Assembly: GCF_900107435.1 (NCBI RefSeq)
Contig: NZ_FNPZ01000004.1
Location: 62,001 to 126,000 of the forward strand
Length of the DNA stretch: 64,000 nt
Source: Herbiconiux ginsengi
Lineage (GTDB): Bacteria > Actinomycetota > Actinomycetes > Actinomycetales > Microbacteriaceae
Reading direction: 5' to 3'
Below are positions 7,678-47,449 of this stretch, piece by piece (positions within the stretch are counted from its first letter, which is position 1; every line of letters starts with the position of its first letter). The notes under the pieces were generated by a model, which saw nothing but the letters and a program-made list of their open reading frames with translations, did not search any database and had not been told where the DNA came from. The position numbers and the translations under genes were made by a program.

Positions 7678-7686
7678 CCCTCCTCG

Positions 7687-7742
7687 CGAGACGTCAAAAT
7701 CCGCCCGAAAAGTCGCGTTTTCGGGCGGATTTTGACGTCTCG
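7687..7742. terminator. 25-bp perfect palindrome between ridA and acs
   Basis: Positions 7687-7711 pair without mismatch with 7718-7742 around a 6-nt loop (GTCGCG). The outer arm begins CGAGACGTCA, and the inner part carries an A4/T4 run flanking CCGCCCG. It lies between converging genes and ends 7 nt from the acs stop codon, so it should act as a bidirectional terminator. The outer 10 bp are identical to those of the palindrome at 47394-47449. Confidence 0.8.
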
Positions 7743-7748
7743 CCGAGG

Positions 7749-27667: not shown

Positions 27668-27678
27668 GGGATCACCCC

Positions 27679-27763
27679 TCCACCACCTTCGCCGACCCGT
27701 CACTTGGTGCCGTTGTGGAAGCCTCATAGCGACGTCAAGTGACGGGTCGGCGAAGGGGGTGGA
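27679..27763. terminator. 28-bp inverted repeat between converging genes
   Basis: Positions 27679-27706 pair with 27736-27763 with one mismatch, around a 29-nt loop. The core is CCTTCGCCGACCCGTCACTTG split by the loop. It ends 3 nt from the aminotransferase stop codon and should terminate both transcripts. Confidence 0.75.
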
Positions 27764-27766
27764 GGA

Positions 27767-30700
27767 TCACCAACCGTGCGTGAGGACTGCGTCGAGGGTG
27801 TGCACGAAGTAGTCGGCGCTCTCGATCGTGAGGGTCATGGGCGGTTTGATCTTCAAGACGCACTGGCGGTCGGAGGTGGGCTGCACGATCACGCCGAGCT
27901 CGCGCATCCGCTCGCAGATCATCGCCGTCTCGAGGTCGGCGGGCTCGCGCGTCGCCCGGTCGCGCACGAGTTCGACGCCGAGATAGAGCCCCAGGCCGTG
28001 CACCGCGCCGATGAGCTCGTGCTTCTCGGCCAGGTCTTCGAGGCGGGATTTCAGGTGGGCGCCGACGACCCGGGCGTTCTGCTGCAGGTGTTCGTCAGCC
28101 AGGATGTCGAGCACCGTCGTTCCCACGACGGAGCTGACCGGGCTGCCACCGGCCGAGGAGAAGAAGTAGCCCTGCGAACGGTAGCGGTCGGCGATGGCGC
28201 GGGTCGTGATCACGGCGCCGAGCGGATGTCCGTTGCCCATCGCCTTGGCCACGGTGACGATGTCGGGCAGCACGCCCTGCTGCTCGAAGCCCCAGAAATA
28301 CTCGCCCAGCCGGCCGTAGCCGACCTGCACCTCGTCGGCGATGCAGAGCCCGCCGGCGGCACGGATCGCGGGGTAGACGGCTCGGAGATAGCCATCGGGG
28401 AGCGGCATCCCGCCCGCGTTGCCGTAGAAGGCCTCCGCGATGAAGGTGGCGGGTGCCCGGCCGTCGGCCTGGAGCCGCTCGATGGACGCGACGGCGTCGG
28501 TGGCGTAGCGGTGGGCGTCGGCGCCCCGGTGGCGGCCCCGGTAGGCGTTGGGCGCGTCGAGCGTGTGCACCCAGGGAGGCCGCGTCTCGAGGGCCTGGGG
28601 GTTGTCGGCGACGGACGTCGAGACGGCGTCGGCCGCATCCGACCAGCCGTGATAGGCCTCGCGCACCGCGACGACGTCGCGCCGGCCCGACCAGGCCCAG
28701 GAGAGTCGCAGCGCGAGGTCCACCGCTTCGGTGCCGCTGTTGACGAGGAAGACGGTGTCGAGCGGATCGGGCAGCAAGGCGGCCAACCGTTCGGAGAACT
28801 CGGCGATCGACGCGTAGTTGAACCGTGAGTTCGTGTTGAGCAGGTTCAGCTGCCGGCCCACGGCTTCGGCGATGCGCGGATGGGCGTGGCCGACCGCGGC
28901 GACGTTGTTCACCATGTCGAGGTAGGGGCGGGCGTCGGTGTCGAAGAGGTGGTGGCGCCACCCGCGCTCGATCTCGGGCGGATCGGCGAAGTAGTGCTCC
29001 TGCACGGCGGCCAGGTGGCGTTCGCGGCGCCGCACGAGTGCTGCGGCCTCGGGCGTCGTTCCGTTTCGCAAAGGAAACGTCGACCGAGGCTCCCTTGGGC
29101 GCGGTTGCAGCGACGTTTGCGGAATCGAACTACCGGCGGTGTCGAATCCGGTGATCAGCGGGGTGGGGTCGAGCACGGAGGGCAGCCAGCCGGGCAGGAG
29201 TTCGGCGGTGGTGAACCACGGCACCTCGTCGAGGGCGACGTCGCCGGTGGTCAGGCGGATGCCGAGCGGCGTGCCCGCGACGGCGATGCCGAGCGGGTCG
29301 CCGGCGCGCACGGGCACCTCTGCGGCTTGCCCCGTGACGGTCTGAGGCCCGGTGGCGGCGTCGAGCGCCGAGGTGACGGCTGTGCCGGCCGTCTGAGTGG
29401 CGGCGATGTCAGGACCGGGTCGAGGCAGGTCTGAACCATCGGGAGCCACGATTCCGGTCAGTTCCAGCGTGAGGCCGGAAGCGGTCGTGAGGCGCAGGGG
29501 CGCTCCGCCGGCCGGTGAACGGTCGAGGGTTCCGGGCCACGGAGCGCGCACGACCTGGCCCGGCTCGGCGAAGGTGACCTCGACGCCGAGTGCGGCACAC
29601 GGATGCGGAGTGCACGACTCGCGGAAGGAGCGCGTCAGGCGGCGCTCGCCGAACCGCGTCGCCGCGGCGGCAGTGCGACCCGTCGTGCCGGCGCCGGCGG
29701 GAGCTGCACCGGAGTCCGGGGCCGCGCTCGCCACGGCGGAGTCCACGTGCGAGGAGCCGGCCGTCCCGGACTCGGGGAACACCCCGGCGACCGGGTCGAT
29801 CCCAGGGCCCCCGCGCGAGGAGCCGGCCGCTTCGGACTTGGAGAAGTCCTCAGCGACCGGGCCCGCACCAGCGGCCGCGTCTGTGAAGGGCCCCGCCGGG
29901 CGGATGCGGAGGGCGGCGGCCGCCACGAGGCGTTCGGCATCCGGCGAGGCGAACAGGCCGGCGGCCAGGGCGTCGCTGGTGGAGGAGAGGTCGACGAACC
30001 GCACCGCCGCCGCCACGAGACCCGGCAACAGCGGGTGCATCGGCGCAGGAACGGACGGCGCCGACGCCGGCGGGAAACCCGCCGCCTGGCGCACCAGCTC
30101 GGTCATCACGCCGAGCGGCACGCTCGTCGCGACGTCGAAGATGCGGTGCTCATGAGCCGCGTTCGCCCGGGTGTAGTCGTTGCCGGGGTCGGTCGCTGCC
30201 GCGTGGTGAGCGCTCACGACCAGGGTGGCGGCCCGCGCCACGACGAGCGGCCACAGAGCATCCGCCTCCGCCGACGACAACGGACGCAGCGCCTGGAAGG
30301 CGCGCACCGCCGGCAGGATCGACACCGCCGACGCCCCGTGATGGTGGAGCACCGACGAGCAGGTCACCGCGAGCTCCGCCACCGCCCAGGTCGACATGAC
30401 GTCGCCGAAGTCGATGATGCCGCATGGCTCCATCCGCCCGCCCGGCACCGACGCCCGCGCGACCACGTTGTCGTCGGTGATGTCGCCGTGGATGACTTGC
30501 CGCGGCAGCTCGGCATCGAGGTCGGCCAGCGCATCCGTGCACGACGACATCGCGGCCCGGAGGCGCGCGGCCAGCGCTGGGCCGGTCACCGAGGGCAGGA
30601 GGTCGTCGACCAGCCGGCCGGCGTTCCGCAGGTCCCACTCGAGCACGCGCTGCGTTCCCGGATGCTCGAACCCGGCCAGGGCGAGCACCGACCGCGCCGC

Positions 30701-31159
30701 GTAGGCGCCGAGCTGTGCGACGACGGAGGGCGCCAGATAGCGCGATCCTGAGAGCGGAGAGCCCGAGACGAAGTCGAGCATCCGCACTAGCAGGCGCGAA
30801 CCACCGTCGCCGAGCGGCACTGCGCTCACGAGGGCGCCGTCGAGGGCGCGGTGCGTGCGCGGTGCGGCGATGTCGGCCGCCAGCGAGCCGAACCGTTCCG
30901 CGGCCAGCGATTGCGCGGTCAGCTCGGCGACGGTGGTGGACGGATGCGCGAACTTCAGCAGCAGGCGTCGCCCGTCGGTCGCTTCCAGCAGGAAGTTCGC
31001 GTCGTGCTGGCTCCCCAGTGCTGCGACCATGCCCGGCACACCGAAGACCGCCGCCGCCACCCGGGAGGCGGATGCCGCGTCGACCGCCGGCGCGGGCGTG
31101 ACGACCTCGGCGAAGCTCCGGGCGCCGGGCTGAGGATTCTCGGTCGAAGACGCGGTCAC
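27767..31159 (-). CDS. APH-type kinase / degenerate M23-like / class III aminotransferase fusion
   Basis: A 1130-residue three-part protein. Residues about 15-330 are an APH/homoserine-kinase-type phosphotransferase with the catalytic HGD (H224) and IDFGD (about 247-251). A low-complexity Ala/Ser/Gly/Pro stretch (about 400-500) holds two similar 19-residue repeats. Residues about 500-680 resemble the M23-peptidase-like domain of this family but lack its zinc ligands. Residues about 700-1130 are a class III PLP enzyme with DEVQVGYGR and the Schiff-base lysine K972 (TVAKAMGNG). Relatives include ethanolamine-phosphate phospho-lyases, so kinase plus phospho-lyase in one chain is plausible. GTG 31159 is chosen; TTG 31198 is an in-frame alternative. 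A palindromic element encodes the linker before the PLP domain. Confidence 0.87.
29058..29130. repeat. Coding copy of a 73-nt palindromic element
   Basis: This segment has the same total length (29+15+29 nt) as the intergenic palindrome at 38985-39057. The right arm (29102-29130) matches that element's right arm at 25 of 29 positions, sharing CGGTTGC, GCGACGTTTGCG and TCGAAC. The left arm is decayed: self-pairing is about 19 of 29. It lies in frame in the linker just before the aminotransferase domain (about residues 677-701 of the fusion protein). Confidence 0.65.
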
Positions 31160-31181: not shown

Positions 31182-31233
31182 TTGACAGAGCGCAGCAAGC
31201 CTGATTGGTTAGTTACATGAGTAATGAACCAAT
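31182..31233 (+). promoter_or_regulatory. Promoter and 30-bp operator of the GntR-ABC operon
   Basis: TTGACA (31182-31187) is a consensus -35; a poor -10 (TTGGTT) follows 17 bp later. The region 31204-31233 is a nested palindrome: ATTGGTT (31204-31210) with AACCAAT (31227-31233), enclosing TTAC (31213-31216) with GTAA (31221-31224) around ATGA. It overlaps the -10 region and lies 14 nt before the gntR ATG, as expected for autorepression by a YtrA-type GntR protein. Confidence 0.7.
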
Positions 31234-35565: not shown

Positions 35566-36621
35566 ATGGACGCCTCGATGCGCTGGGCCGGGCAACGCAT
35601 CGACGCCCTCGCGCCCGGAACGTTGCCGGGCCTCGCGCGGGTCAGCAACCTCGTGCAGAGCGTGCGCTCGCCGGAGTTCGCGGGCATCACCTTTCACGAG
35701 ATCCTCGCGAAGACCGCGCTGAACCACGTGCCCGCCACCGCCCGGATGCTCCCCGACGAGTGGACCATCAATCCCTACCGCGGCTGCACCCACGCCTGCG
35801 TCTACTGCTACGCGCGGCCGACGCACGAGCACCTCGGGCTGAACGTGCTCGGCGACTTCGACGACCAGATCGTGGTGAAGACCAACATCGTCGATGTGCT
35901 GCGCGCCGAGCTGGCCAAGAAGCGCGTGCTGCCGCCGCGCGTCGCGCTGGGCACGAGCACCGATCCCTATCAGCGCGCCGAGGGTCGTTACCGGTTGATG
36001 CCCGGCATCATCCAGGCGCTGGGGGAGTCACGCATCCCGTTCTCGGTGCTGACCAAGGGCACGCTGATCCGCCGCGACATCCCGCTGCTCGTCGAGGCGA
36101 ACCGGCGGGCGCACGTCGAACCGGGGCTCTCGATGTCGTTCGTCGACGAGGAGTTGCAGCAGTCGTTGGAGCCCGGCACCCCCACGACCGCGGCGCGACT
36201 CACCGCTCTCGCCGAGATCCGGGCGGCGGGGCTCGACTGCACCGTTTTTCTCGCGCCGATCCTGCCGATTCTCAGCGACCGGCCGCACCAGCTCGAACGG
36301 ATGGTCCGCCAGATCGCCGAGGCGGGCGCCACCGCTGTGCTGCCCACGCCGTTGTATCTCAGCTCGGCCGTGCGACCGGGGTTCTTCGCCTGGCTCGGGC
36401 GCACGCATCCGGAGCTCGTGGCCGACTACGAGCGCATCTACTCGGGCGGCTCGGAGGCCGACCCGCGTTACCGGCGCTGGCTCGACGAGCAGCTGCAGCC
36501 GCTGCTCACCAAGCACGGGCTGCCGGCTCCGGATGCGGGGGTGCAAGACAAGTTCGCCCTGCACGGCCGCCGCGCCGCCGCGCCTGGGGCTGACGCCCCT
36601 GTACCACCGACACTGTTCTGA
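35566..36621 (+). CDS. Rv2578c-family radical SAM protein (copy 2)
   Basis: A 351-residue paralogue of the gene at 516. The cluster cysteines are C74, C78 and C81 in RGCTHACVYC, and the same INPYRGC, YARPTH, LGTSTDPYQRAEGRY and EELQQSLEPGTP blocks occur in both. ATG 35566 is favoured because AAAGG lies 9-10 nt upstream; ATG 35557 is too close to it. Unlike copy 1 it has no LexA box. It is divergent from the HTH-exporter operon, across the TGTCAA operators, and is followed by a GC-rich terminator. Its reaction is unknown. Confidence 0.88.
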   Translation: MDASMRWAGQRIDALAPGTLPGLARVSNLVQSVRSPEFAGITFHEILAKTALNHVPATARMLPDEWTINPYRGCTHACVYCYARPTHEHLGLNVLGDFDDQIVVKTNIVDVLRAELAKKRVLPPRVALGTSTDPYQRAEGRYRLMPGIIQALGESRIPFSVLTKGTLIRRDIPLLVEANRRAHVEPGLSMSFVDEELQQSLEPGTPTTAARLTALAEIRAAGLDCTVFLAPILPILSDRPHQLERMVRQIAEAGATAVLPTPLYLSSAVRPGFFAWLGRTHPELVADYERIYSGGSEADPRYRRWLDEQLQPLLTKHGLPAPDAGVQDKFALHGRRAAAPGADAPVPPTLF

Positions 36622-38980: not shown

Positions 38981-38984
38981 CGCT

Positions 38985-39057
38985 GTTCGAAATCGCAAAC
39001 GTCGCCGCAACCGGCGCCTCTATGGCCTCGGTTGCGGCGACGTTTGCGATTTCGAAC
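38985..39057. terminator. 29-bp perfect palindrome (element also found inside the kinase/aminotransferase gene)
   Basis: Positions 38985-39013 pair with 39029-39057 without mismatch around a 15-nt loop; the arm carries ATCGCAAACGTCGCCGC. It fills the gap between the converging kinase and ribH genes and ends 3 nt from the ribH stop. Its length and right arm match the segment 29058-29130. Confidence 0.8.
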
Positions 39058-39059
39058 GG

Positions 39060-39539
39060 CTAGGCGCCGCGGATCGCCCGGAGGGTGAGCGCGGTGGCGA
39101 TGGCGGCCTCGGCCGCCTCGGCGCCCTTGTCCTCCTTCGAGCCGGGGAGTCCGGCGCGATCGAGGCCCTCCTGCTCGTCGTTCAGGGTCAGCACGCCGAA
39201 GCCCACGGGTTTGCCGGTGAGGATGCTCACCTGCGTGAGACCGCTGGTCGCGGCATCCGAGACGTATTCGAAGTGCGGTGTGCCACCGCGGATGATGACG
39301 CCGAGCGCCACCACCGCGTCGGCGCCCGCCTCCAGGGCGGCGCGAGACACCACCGGCAGCTCGAAGCTGCCCGCGACGCGCACCTCGGTGACGGTCACGT
39401 TCGCCGCCGCAAGGGCGCGGCGGGCGCCCTCCAGCAGGCCGTTCGTGATCTCCTCGTGCCAGGTGCCGGCGACGACGGTGATGTTCAGTCCTGTTCCGTC
39501 GAGATCGACGTCGAGACTCGGGGCTCCCGCTCCGCTCAT
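39060..39539 (-). CDS. ribH: 6,7-dimethyl-8-ribityllumazine synthase
   Basis: A 159-residue enzyme that condenses 5-amino-6-ribitylaminouracil with dihydroxybutanone phosphate, forming icosahedral or pentameric shells. Family blocks VAGSFELPVV, ALGVIIRGGTPHFEYV (with the catalytic His) and PVGFGVLTLN are present. ATG 39539 follows GGAAAGG. It is the last gene of the rib operon, 26 nt after ribBA, and ends at a 29-bp palindrome. Confidence 0.96.
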   Translation of the reverse strand: MSGAGAPSLDVDLDGTGLNITVVAGTWHEEITNGLLEGARRALAAANVTVTEVRVAGSFELPVVSRAALEAGADAVVALGVIIRGGTPHFEYVSDAATSGLTQVSILTGKPVGFGVLTLNDEQEGLDRAGLPGSKEDKGAEAAEAAIATALTLRAIRGA

Positions 39540-47393: not shown

Positions 47394-47449
47394 CGAGACG
47401 TCACGGTCCGCGCCACAGCGGGCGACGGTGCGCGGGCCGTGACGTCTCG
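47394..47449. terminator. 20-bp palindrome between the FUSC gene and trpS
   Basis: Positions 47394-47413 pair with 47430-47449 (one G-T pair) around 16 nt. The outer CGAGACGTCA is identical to the palindrome at 7687-7742, while the inner arm differs (CGGTCCGCGC). It separates converging genes and ends 12 nt before the trpS stop. Confidence 0.75.

Follow-up and report, generated by a model that had tools for sequence, protein, structure and literature searches.

An aminotransferase linker of Herbiconiux ginsengi matches a dispersed 73-nt palindromic repeat that is also found in frame in other proteins

The segment 29058-29130 of the window (the whole stretch of 64,000 nucleotides that was analysed) is, judged from its sequence, a diverged member of a family of 73-nt palindromic repeats dispersed in Herbiconiux. 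It lies in frame in a gene on the reverse strand and accounts for residues 677-701 of a product of 1130 amino acids. The repeat is designated family A, with the intergenic element at 38985-39057 as type copy; G and L numbers are used below for genomes and loci, G000 being the present genome. The following features of the window are needed for the comparison:

27767..31159, reverse strand: host gene, with an APH domain and an aminotransferase class-III domain, a PRK06149-type aminotransferase according to domain and profile matches
29058..29130, reverse strand: family-A palindromic element, in frame, forming the linker that precedes the aminotransferase class-III domain
38985..39057, no strand assigned: intact family-A element (90.2 bits) between the convergent stops of two genes that we take, by name and not from a family scan, to be a ribokinase-like gene and ribH

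The linker copy and its orthologues

The host product has 1130 residues when started at 31159 and 1143 residues if the TTG at 31198 is used. Its match to the NF004800 (PRK06149-type) profile reached 1231 bits, and the best stretch of this match starts with the final residue of the insert (701). A preliminary description of this DNA had given the segment at 29058-29130 a length of 73 nt and the arm and loop layout of the element at 38985-39057; coordinates, length and layout were all found to be correct, both elements being built as 29/15/29. The right arm on the forward strand agrees with the family-A arm consensus at 25 of 29 positions, the same number that had been counted earlier, and the same four mismatches appear when it is set by eye against the arm of the 38985 element. 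The likeness had also been said to lie beyond chance. This was borne out with a covariance model made from 21 intergenic family-A copies, the four coding copies being left out of the alignment: the model scores 29058-29130 at 34.8 bits (E 2.3e-6) and its match spans all 73 positions of the linker copy (search of 19 sources, 294,814 bases, with rough E-values). The left arm, described as decayed, does have a shortened core, but its outer tag GTTCCGTTTCGCAAA is still kept, so that it is not simply decayed; read by eye, the arm consists of this tag, a 5-nt insertion GGAAA and then the shortened core.

The RNA fold of the linker copy is no better than that of shuffled sequences (z of -0.5 versus -15.4 for 38982-39060). 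This fold, and the hypervariability of the linker region among orthologues, would suit a coincidence or codon-level convergence by which the linker merely resembles an intergenic palindrome. Such a chance origin is opposed by the E-value obtained from a model built without the linker copy, by three further in-frame family-A copies and by the orthologous linker of the sister species G288, which independently matches the repeat family of G288 itself. At the level of sequence the chance resemblance is largely refuted, and we give it next to no credence.

The comparison of orthologues that had been proposed as a check showed that the linker is not conserved, its length ranging from 26 to 89 residues in the ten congeneric orthologues readable through it. 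At the 11 aminotransferase loci scored with the family-A model, of which ten reach the linker and the G302 contig does not, the linker copy was found in G000 only. A good match of the linker to copies of family C was confined to G288 (E 2e-11 with copy L067), and the other orthologous linkers align with ten family-C copies over stretches of at most 25 nt. In a genome search, the G288 linker element matched the next G288 copy at E 5e-10. The de novo palindrome scan of the linkers is insensitive and misses the G288 copy too; absence is judged by the model and by the family-C comparisons. On these sequence matches, a palindrome of G288's own family C occupies the same aminotransferase linker in the sister species, which is newly seen here. 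Since the corresponding position in G288 is occupied by a palindrome whose core is similar, the linker palindrome would predate the split of G000 and G288, and the copy at 29058-29130 is probably old. The proposed entry of a palindrome into a coding region, where it was tolerated as linker, gains support from the variable linker and the three additional in-frame copies. As for the proposal of a mobile or recombining palindrome, further copies and patchy presence agree with it, but transposition itself was not seen.

Palindrome families in the genome and in the genus

The recommended search for additional copies of the arm brought up copies here and in other Herbiconiux species. Within the 4.85 Mb of this genome there are 25 occurrences of the core 12-mer GCGACGTTTGCG and none of its reversed control. 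All 25 lie within 73-nt elements: 16 of them make up eight pairs 43 nt apart, and for nine the other arm differs. Across 299 genomes of the family, G205 contains the 12-mer 30 times and genomes other than these two at most eight times (G208); pairs with the 43-nt spacing were absent outside the genus among the matches listed. The 12-mer also occurs outside palindromes, namely in G205 at L240, one of 13 places retrieved there, and in G011 at its single place, L246.

With the family-A model, strand-matches at E <= 0.01 numbered 69 in G000, 61 in G205, 60 in G306, 47 in G301, 45 in G307, 34 in G288, 24 in G093, 21 in G303, 16 in G299 and 11 in G305; five more of the 16 congeneric genomes gave six or fewer and G011 gave none. 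These counts are rough because most elements match on both strands, 150 candidates per genome were scored and some family-C copies are included (the model also picks up the family-C copy at L069 1931-1994). A set of 33 copies from G205, G307, G301 and G306, chosen from 12-mer matches and the best model matches, consists throughout of 73-nt elements. Beyond the genus, nothing better than E 0.18 was obtained with the model against 73 named loci (1.27 Mb, including a few from the genus itself). Changes on both sides were counted in 14 of the 29 arm pairs, as many as in none of 500 shuffles, and sliding the partners by 1-3 columns left only four to nine pairs with two-sided changes. The outer ends (about 12-20 nt) are conserved in sequence and the inner sides of the stem covary. 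An Rfam search of 13 kb returned only sub-threshold microRNA-type matches, which were set aside as chance matches due to the hairpin shape, and one snoRNA-type match.

Two identical 73-nt elements were found in G205 (L231 458-530 and L236 401-473), beside paralogues with 89% identity (405/455) that are presumably glpK. Recent transposition was considered for this pair and not adopted, as the neighbouring genes are paralogous and gene duplication or conversion may explain the identity; the elements may have been copied or converted after the gene duplication, or duplicated together with the genes.

Further palindromes were recognized in the window, where a de novo scan gave seven at a score of at least 14 compared with 0, 0 and 0 in three base-composition shuffles:

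27677..27765, no strand assigned: family-B palindrome of 89 nt, filling the spacer between the convergent stops of the host gene and a gene that we take to be aldehyde dehydrogenase-like
7686..7743, no strand assigned: long palindrome of family D, between convergent genes
47394..47449, no strand assigned: palindrome of family D that shares its GAGACGTCA end with 7686-7743, likewise situated between convergent genes

Family B has 15 further places in the genome at E <= 1e-3. In G288 the orthologous spacer has no such element, and its sequence can be interpreted as a short CCCTCCTCGCG/CGCGAGGAGGG hairpin. Family E comprises three stretches of G000. Family C is the family of G288, its 14-mer being present 26 times in G288, seven times in G302, once in G000 and not in the other 13 genomes.

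Some observations were made beside these families. At the ribH gene end, two neighbouring palindromes of local spelling are present in G205 (L191 2024-2165) and likewise in G299 (H. daphne; L194 2020-2159, reverse complement). A palindromic stretch of GCGACGATCCACAGGATCGTCGC type is situated at the start of scpB, inside the gene in G300 (L257) and just before the ATG in G301 (L260), thus at the same end of scpB that carries a family-A insert in G000. In Agreia, L117 and L120 contain a long palindrome with CCCTTCGACAAGCTCAGGGAAC arms, which we assume to be a repeat widespread in bacteria. Within the window, 516-1382 and 35578-36444 are two diverged gene copies, 72-81% identical over several stretches, with a CxxxCYxY motif that presumably is that of radical SAM proteins.

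Copies inside proteins and shared sites in the sister species

Among 27 family-A copies examined in G000, four are in frame within genes. Apart from the linker copy these are:

ScpB, residues 8-32: in-frame copy
Heavy-metal P-type ATPase, residues 570-594: in-frame copy
FGE-sulfatase-domain protein, residues 580-604: in-frame copy

These three share a reading frame (F-E-x-A-N...), from which that of the linker copy differs. Each coding copy adds about 25 residues, at a variable loop, an N-terminus or an interdomain stretch. Three coding copies were checked in orthologues and are missing from most of them. By the model, the ScpB copy is present in G000 and in none of the 15 other congeners; ScpB proteins could be read in 15 of the 16 genomes, and the 14 other N-termini are without the insert. 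No in-frame ATG, GTG or TTG was seen by eye between the ScpB insert and the conserved domain. An ORF match of G307 with the peptide of the ScpB insert proved to be an intergenic copy and was dropped. The ATPase copy was detected by the model in two of 14 genomes (G000 and G288), the protein loops of the other 12 being without it. In G288, the FGE-sulfatase-type gene contains two palindromes, one of C type (L069 1928-2001) and one of A type (L069 2269-2341, 59.6 bits); at the first of these places G000 has a similar peptide and a weak DNA match (E 0.09). Because in-frame copies are present in few congeners, as in the cases of ScpB and the ATPase, it follows that palindromes enter proteins in Herbiconiux. 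Gain within a lineage appears to be the simplest reading for the ScpB copy and, at greater age, for the ATPase copy. Decay of the hairpin as a rule for coding copies was rejected: it was seen in the linker only, as the other three still pair at 22-26 of 29 positions, the intergenic mean being 23.3.

When 16 family-A sites were mapped to G288, nine held a family-C palindrome, four a family-A palindrome, one another palindrome and two none, in a biased sample, most G288 loci having been selected for the element they contain. The remaining 11 of the 27 family-A copies fall outside this mapping, and L008, L008b and L010 were placed by one flank or a looser match. Five sites came from blind stretches, which missed several other sites, and gave C, A, another palindrome, none and none. 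The C sites L067 and L076 are without room for an element in G000. At the ribH site (38985-39057), G288 and G302 have family C with a near-identical core and G000 has family A. In a midpoint-rooted tree of ribH and scpB, G302 was placed outside G000 and G288 with supports of 98 and 89. Because G302, also of type C, branches there, a replacement of C by A in G000 is the probable history of the ribH site.

The similarity of cores at the same site gave a sum that was reached in 9 of 20,000 permutations, a signal carried by three of 12 pairs, namely L001 (both A), L006/L068 and the linker; L008b and L007 rank 24th and 21st of 25 in core similarity. At L006/L068 and at the linker the cores are alike and the outer tags of ~12 nt differ, being of GTTCGAAAYCGC type versus CGGACTTCTCC type (compared by eye, the tags of the linker being imperfect). 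From this comparison it looks as though the hairpin core was inherited and the outer tags were changed at these two places. For the remaining pairs, full replacement and independent occupation of favoured sites are equally open, because these pairs are without a clear partner-specific core. It is possible, though doubtful, that gene-end sites and even one in-frame protein insert keep their palindrome while the tags of both arms are rewritten to the dominant spelling of the species (A in G000, C in G288) and the core is sometimes left.

Position, spread and relation to known repeats

For 92 intergenic elements (23 of family A in G000, 14 of family B, 22 of family C in G288 and 33 of family A in other species) the neighbouring genes were determined with our own codon-usage gene caller and not a standard one; six copies located in genes were left out, as was L233, situated at the edge of a stretch. 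Convergent genes flank 55 elements, tandem genes 34 and divergent genes three, compared with 12.6, 44.3 and 35.1 expected by spacer length from the spacers in the window and in 26 stretches of G000 and G288. In 31 of the 34 tandem cases the upstream stop is the nearer one, and the facing stop is a median of 9 nt away and at most 25 nt away in 76 of 89. A stable hairpin directly behind stop codons, as seen in the position and in the fold of 38982-39060, is a feature of terminators; no T-run follows the 38985 element. Adjacency to stop codons, along with the fold, thus suggests that the intergenic copies are transcript-end hairpins.

Regarding mobility, neither a transposition event nor a target-site duplication was seen in seven aligned spacer pairs, in which spacers with and without the element align poorly. 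Six of these pairs gave no clean junction of the kind that an insertion with target-site duplication would leave; the seventh (L106 10736) has a similar palindrome in both species. A search of the 12 contigs of this genome with the exact 12-mer revealed no longer element with the family-A core that could be an IS partner. The RAYT gene Y1_Tnp (PF01797) was not found in G000, G288, G205, G301, G306 and G307; the only one of the 16 genomes that has it is G011, the sole genome without a family-A model match.

We consider it reasonably probable that a dispersed Herbiconiux repeat, kept for its 3'-end hairpins and copied in trans, also gives rise to tolerated in-frame inserts. Intergenic copies beside convergent or tandem genes would form the 3'-end hairpins of the transcripts and would be kept because of this putative role, new copies would be made by a trans-acting copying process on the conserved ends, and a copy in an ORF would persist only if its length, its frame and the lack of stop codons permit a tolerated linker. 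The small size, inverted ends, dispersed copies and patchy presence could also come from a MITE, non-autonomous and moved by a DDE-type transposase encoded elsewhere, to which the outer ends would serve as terminal inverted repeats. This is unlikely, because within this genome the exact core motif was not found in any longer element, no target-site duplication was seen, and the elements have a strong preference for the sides of stop codons. That preference, with few elements in divergent spacers, would in turn be expected from function without any mobility, where terminators are selected in place and the shared ends reflect binding of a species-specific termination or nucleoid protein; sites common to the sister species with different outer ends, and a conserved outer sequence around a covarying inner stem, agree with it as well. 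However, copies in ORFs lie away from transcript ends, only one of 16 congeners has the ScpB copy, and selection alone would hardly produce a long sequence common to unrelated loci, so that we hold purely functional convergence to be unlikely. A REPIN-type element moved by a RAYT transposase would be palindromic and intergenic, with several families per genome and occasional intragenic copies, the latter being described for REPs in the available part of PMC3733652. It is very improbable here and was rejected, since the carriers lack Y1_Tnp; moreover, the arms are paired to their ends and no unpaired GTAG/CGTC tag is present.

The parallel with the Rickettsia palindromic elements (RPEs), already drawn in the preliminary description, holds for the way in which they work, compared by description rather than by sequence: these too are dispersed palindromic families, located outside genes and in frame in unrelated genes as an added peptide, and in G000 such in-frame insertion was found in four unrelated genes. 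RPEs have a length of about 150 bp, and in the first set to be reported almost half lay within ORFs, according to the available part of PMC10969869. The Herbiconiux repeat, in contrast, has 73 nt, is in ORFs in 4 of 27 cases, belongs to an actinobacterium and is found mainly behind stop codons. REPs are intergenic, mostly between convergent or unidirectional genes, with some in ORFs and several families per genome; they measure 20-40 bp and one of their ends bears a tetranucleotide tag, the GTAG type being associated with RAYT (PMC3733652, available part). The term "Actinobacteria" is absent from the main text of PMC3733652. Like REP/REPIN sequences, the Herbiconiux palindromes lie between convergent or tandem genes, some are in ORFs and several families exist; unlike them, family A has 29-bp arms paired to the ends over 73 nt, in place of a stem-loop of 20-40 nt with an unpaired GTAG/CGTC end, and its carriers are without RAYT. 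The Cod-2 stem-loop family consists of very small repeats that lie in diverse coding sequences and are translated in different frames, and its authors liken it to the R. conorii repeats (PMC2267715, available part). Family A resembles Cod-2 in these respects; by description, Cod-2 is genic, whereas the Herbiconiux copies are mostly intergenic. MITEs are likewise short, non-autonomous and bounded by inverted repeats, but the searches described above found neither a partner transposase nor a target-site duplication for the Herbiconiux repeat. Uptake sequences (DUS), the spelling of which is species-specific, share with it a repeated motif in inverted pairs. Such pairs can form terminator hairpins, as cited in the available part of PMC2267715. 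The large genome-wide excess of single motifs typical of DUS was not found, all exact core 12-mers of this genome being in 73-nt palindromes. A literature search for palindromes of Herbiconiux gave an endophyte review, available in part, as sole match, and one for repetitive extragenic palindromes and RAYT in Actinobacteria gave no match. The closest known systems are the Rickettsia palindromic elements and intragenic REPs, the definition of tagged REPs with RAYT not applying.

Repeated in-frame insertion of palindromes, best known from Rickettsia, is thereby extended to a GC-rich actinobacterium, in which ScpB and the P-type ATPase offer comparisons with and without the insert among congeners. 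For repeats that have no known transposase, a pair of sister species with different spellings at some common sites provides a direct test of how short palindromes spread and are homogenised. If the spelling of such sites is indeed replaced, dispersed palindromes, the coding one included, would be homogenised by an active process or by a switching recognition protein.
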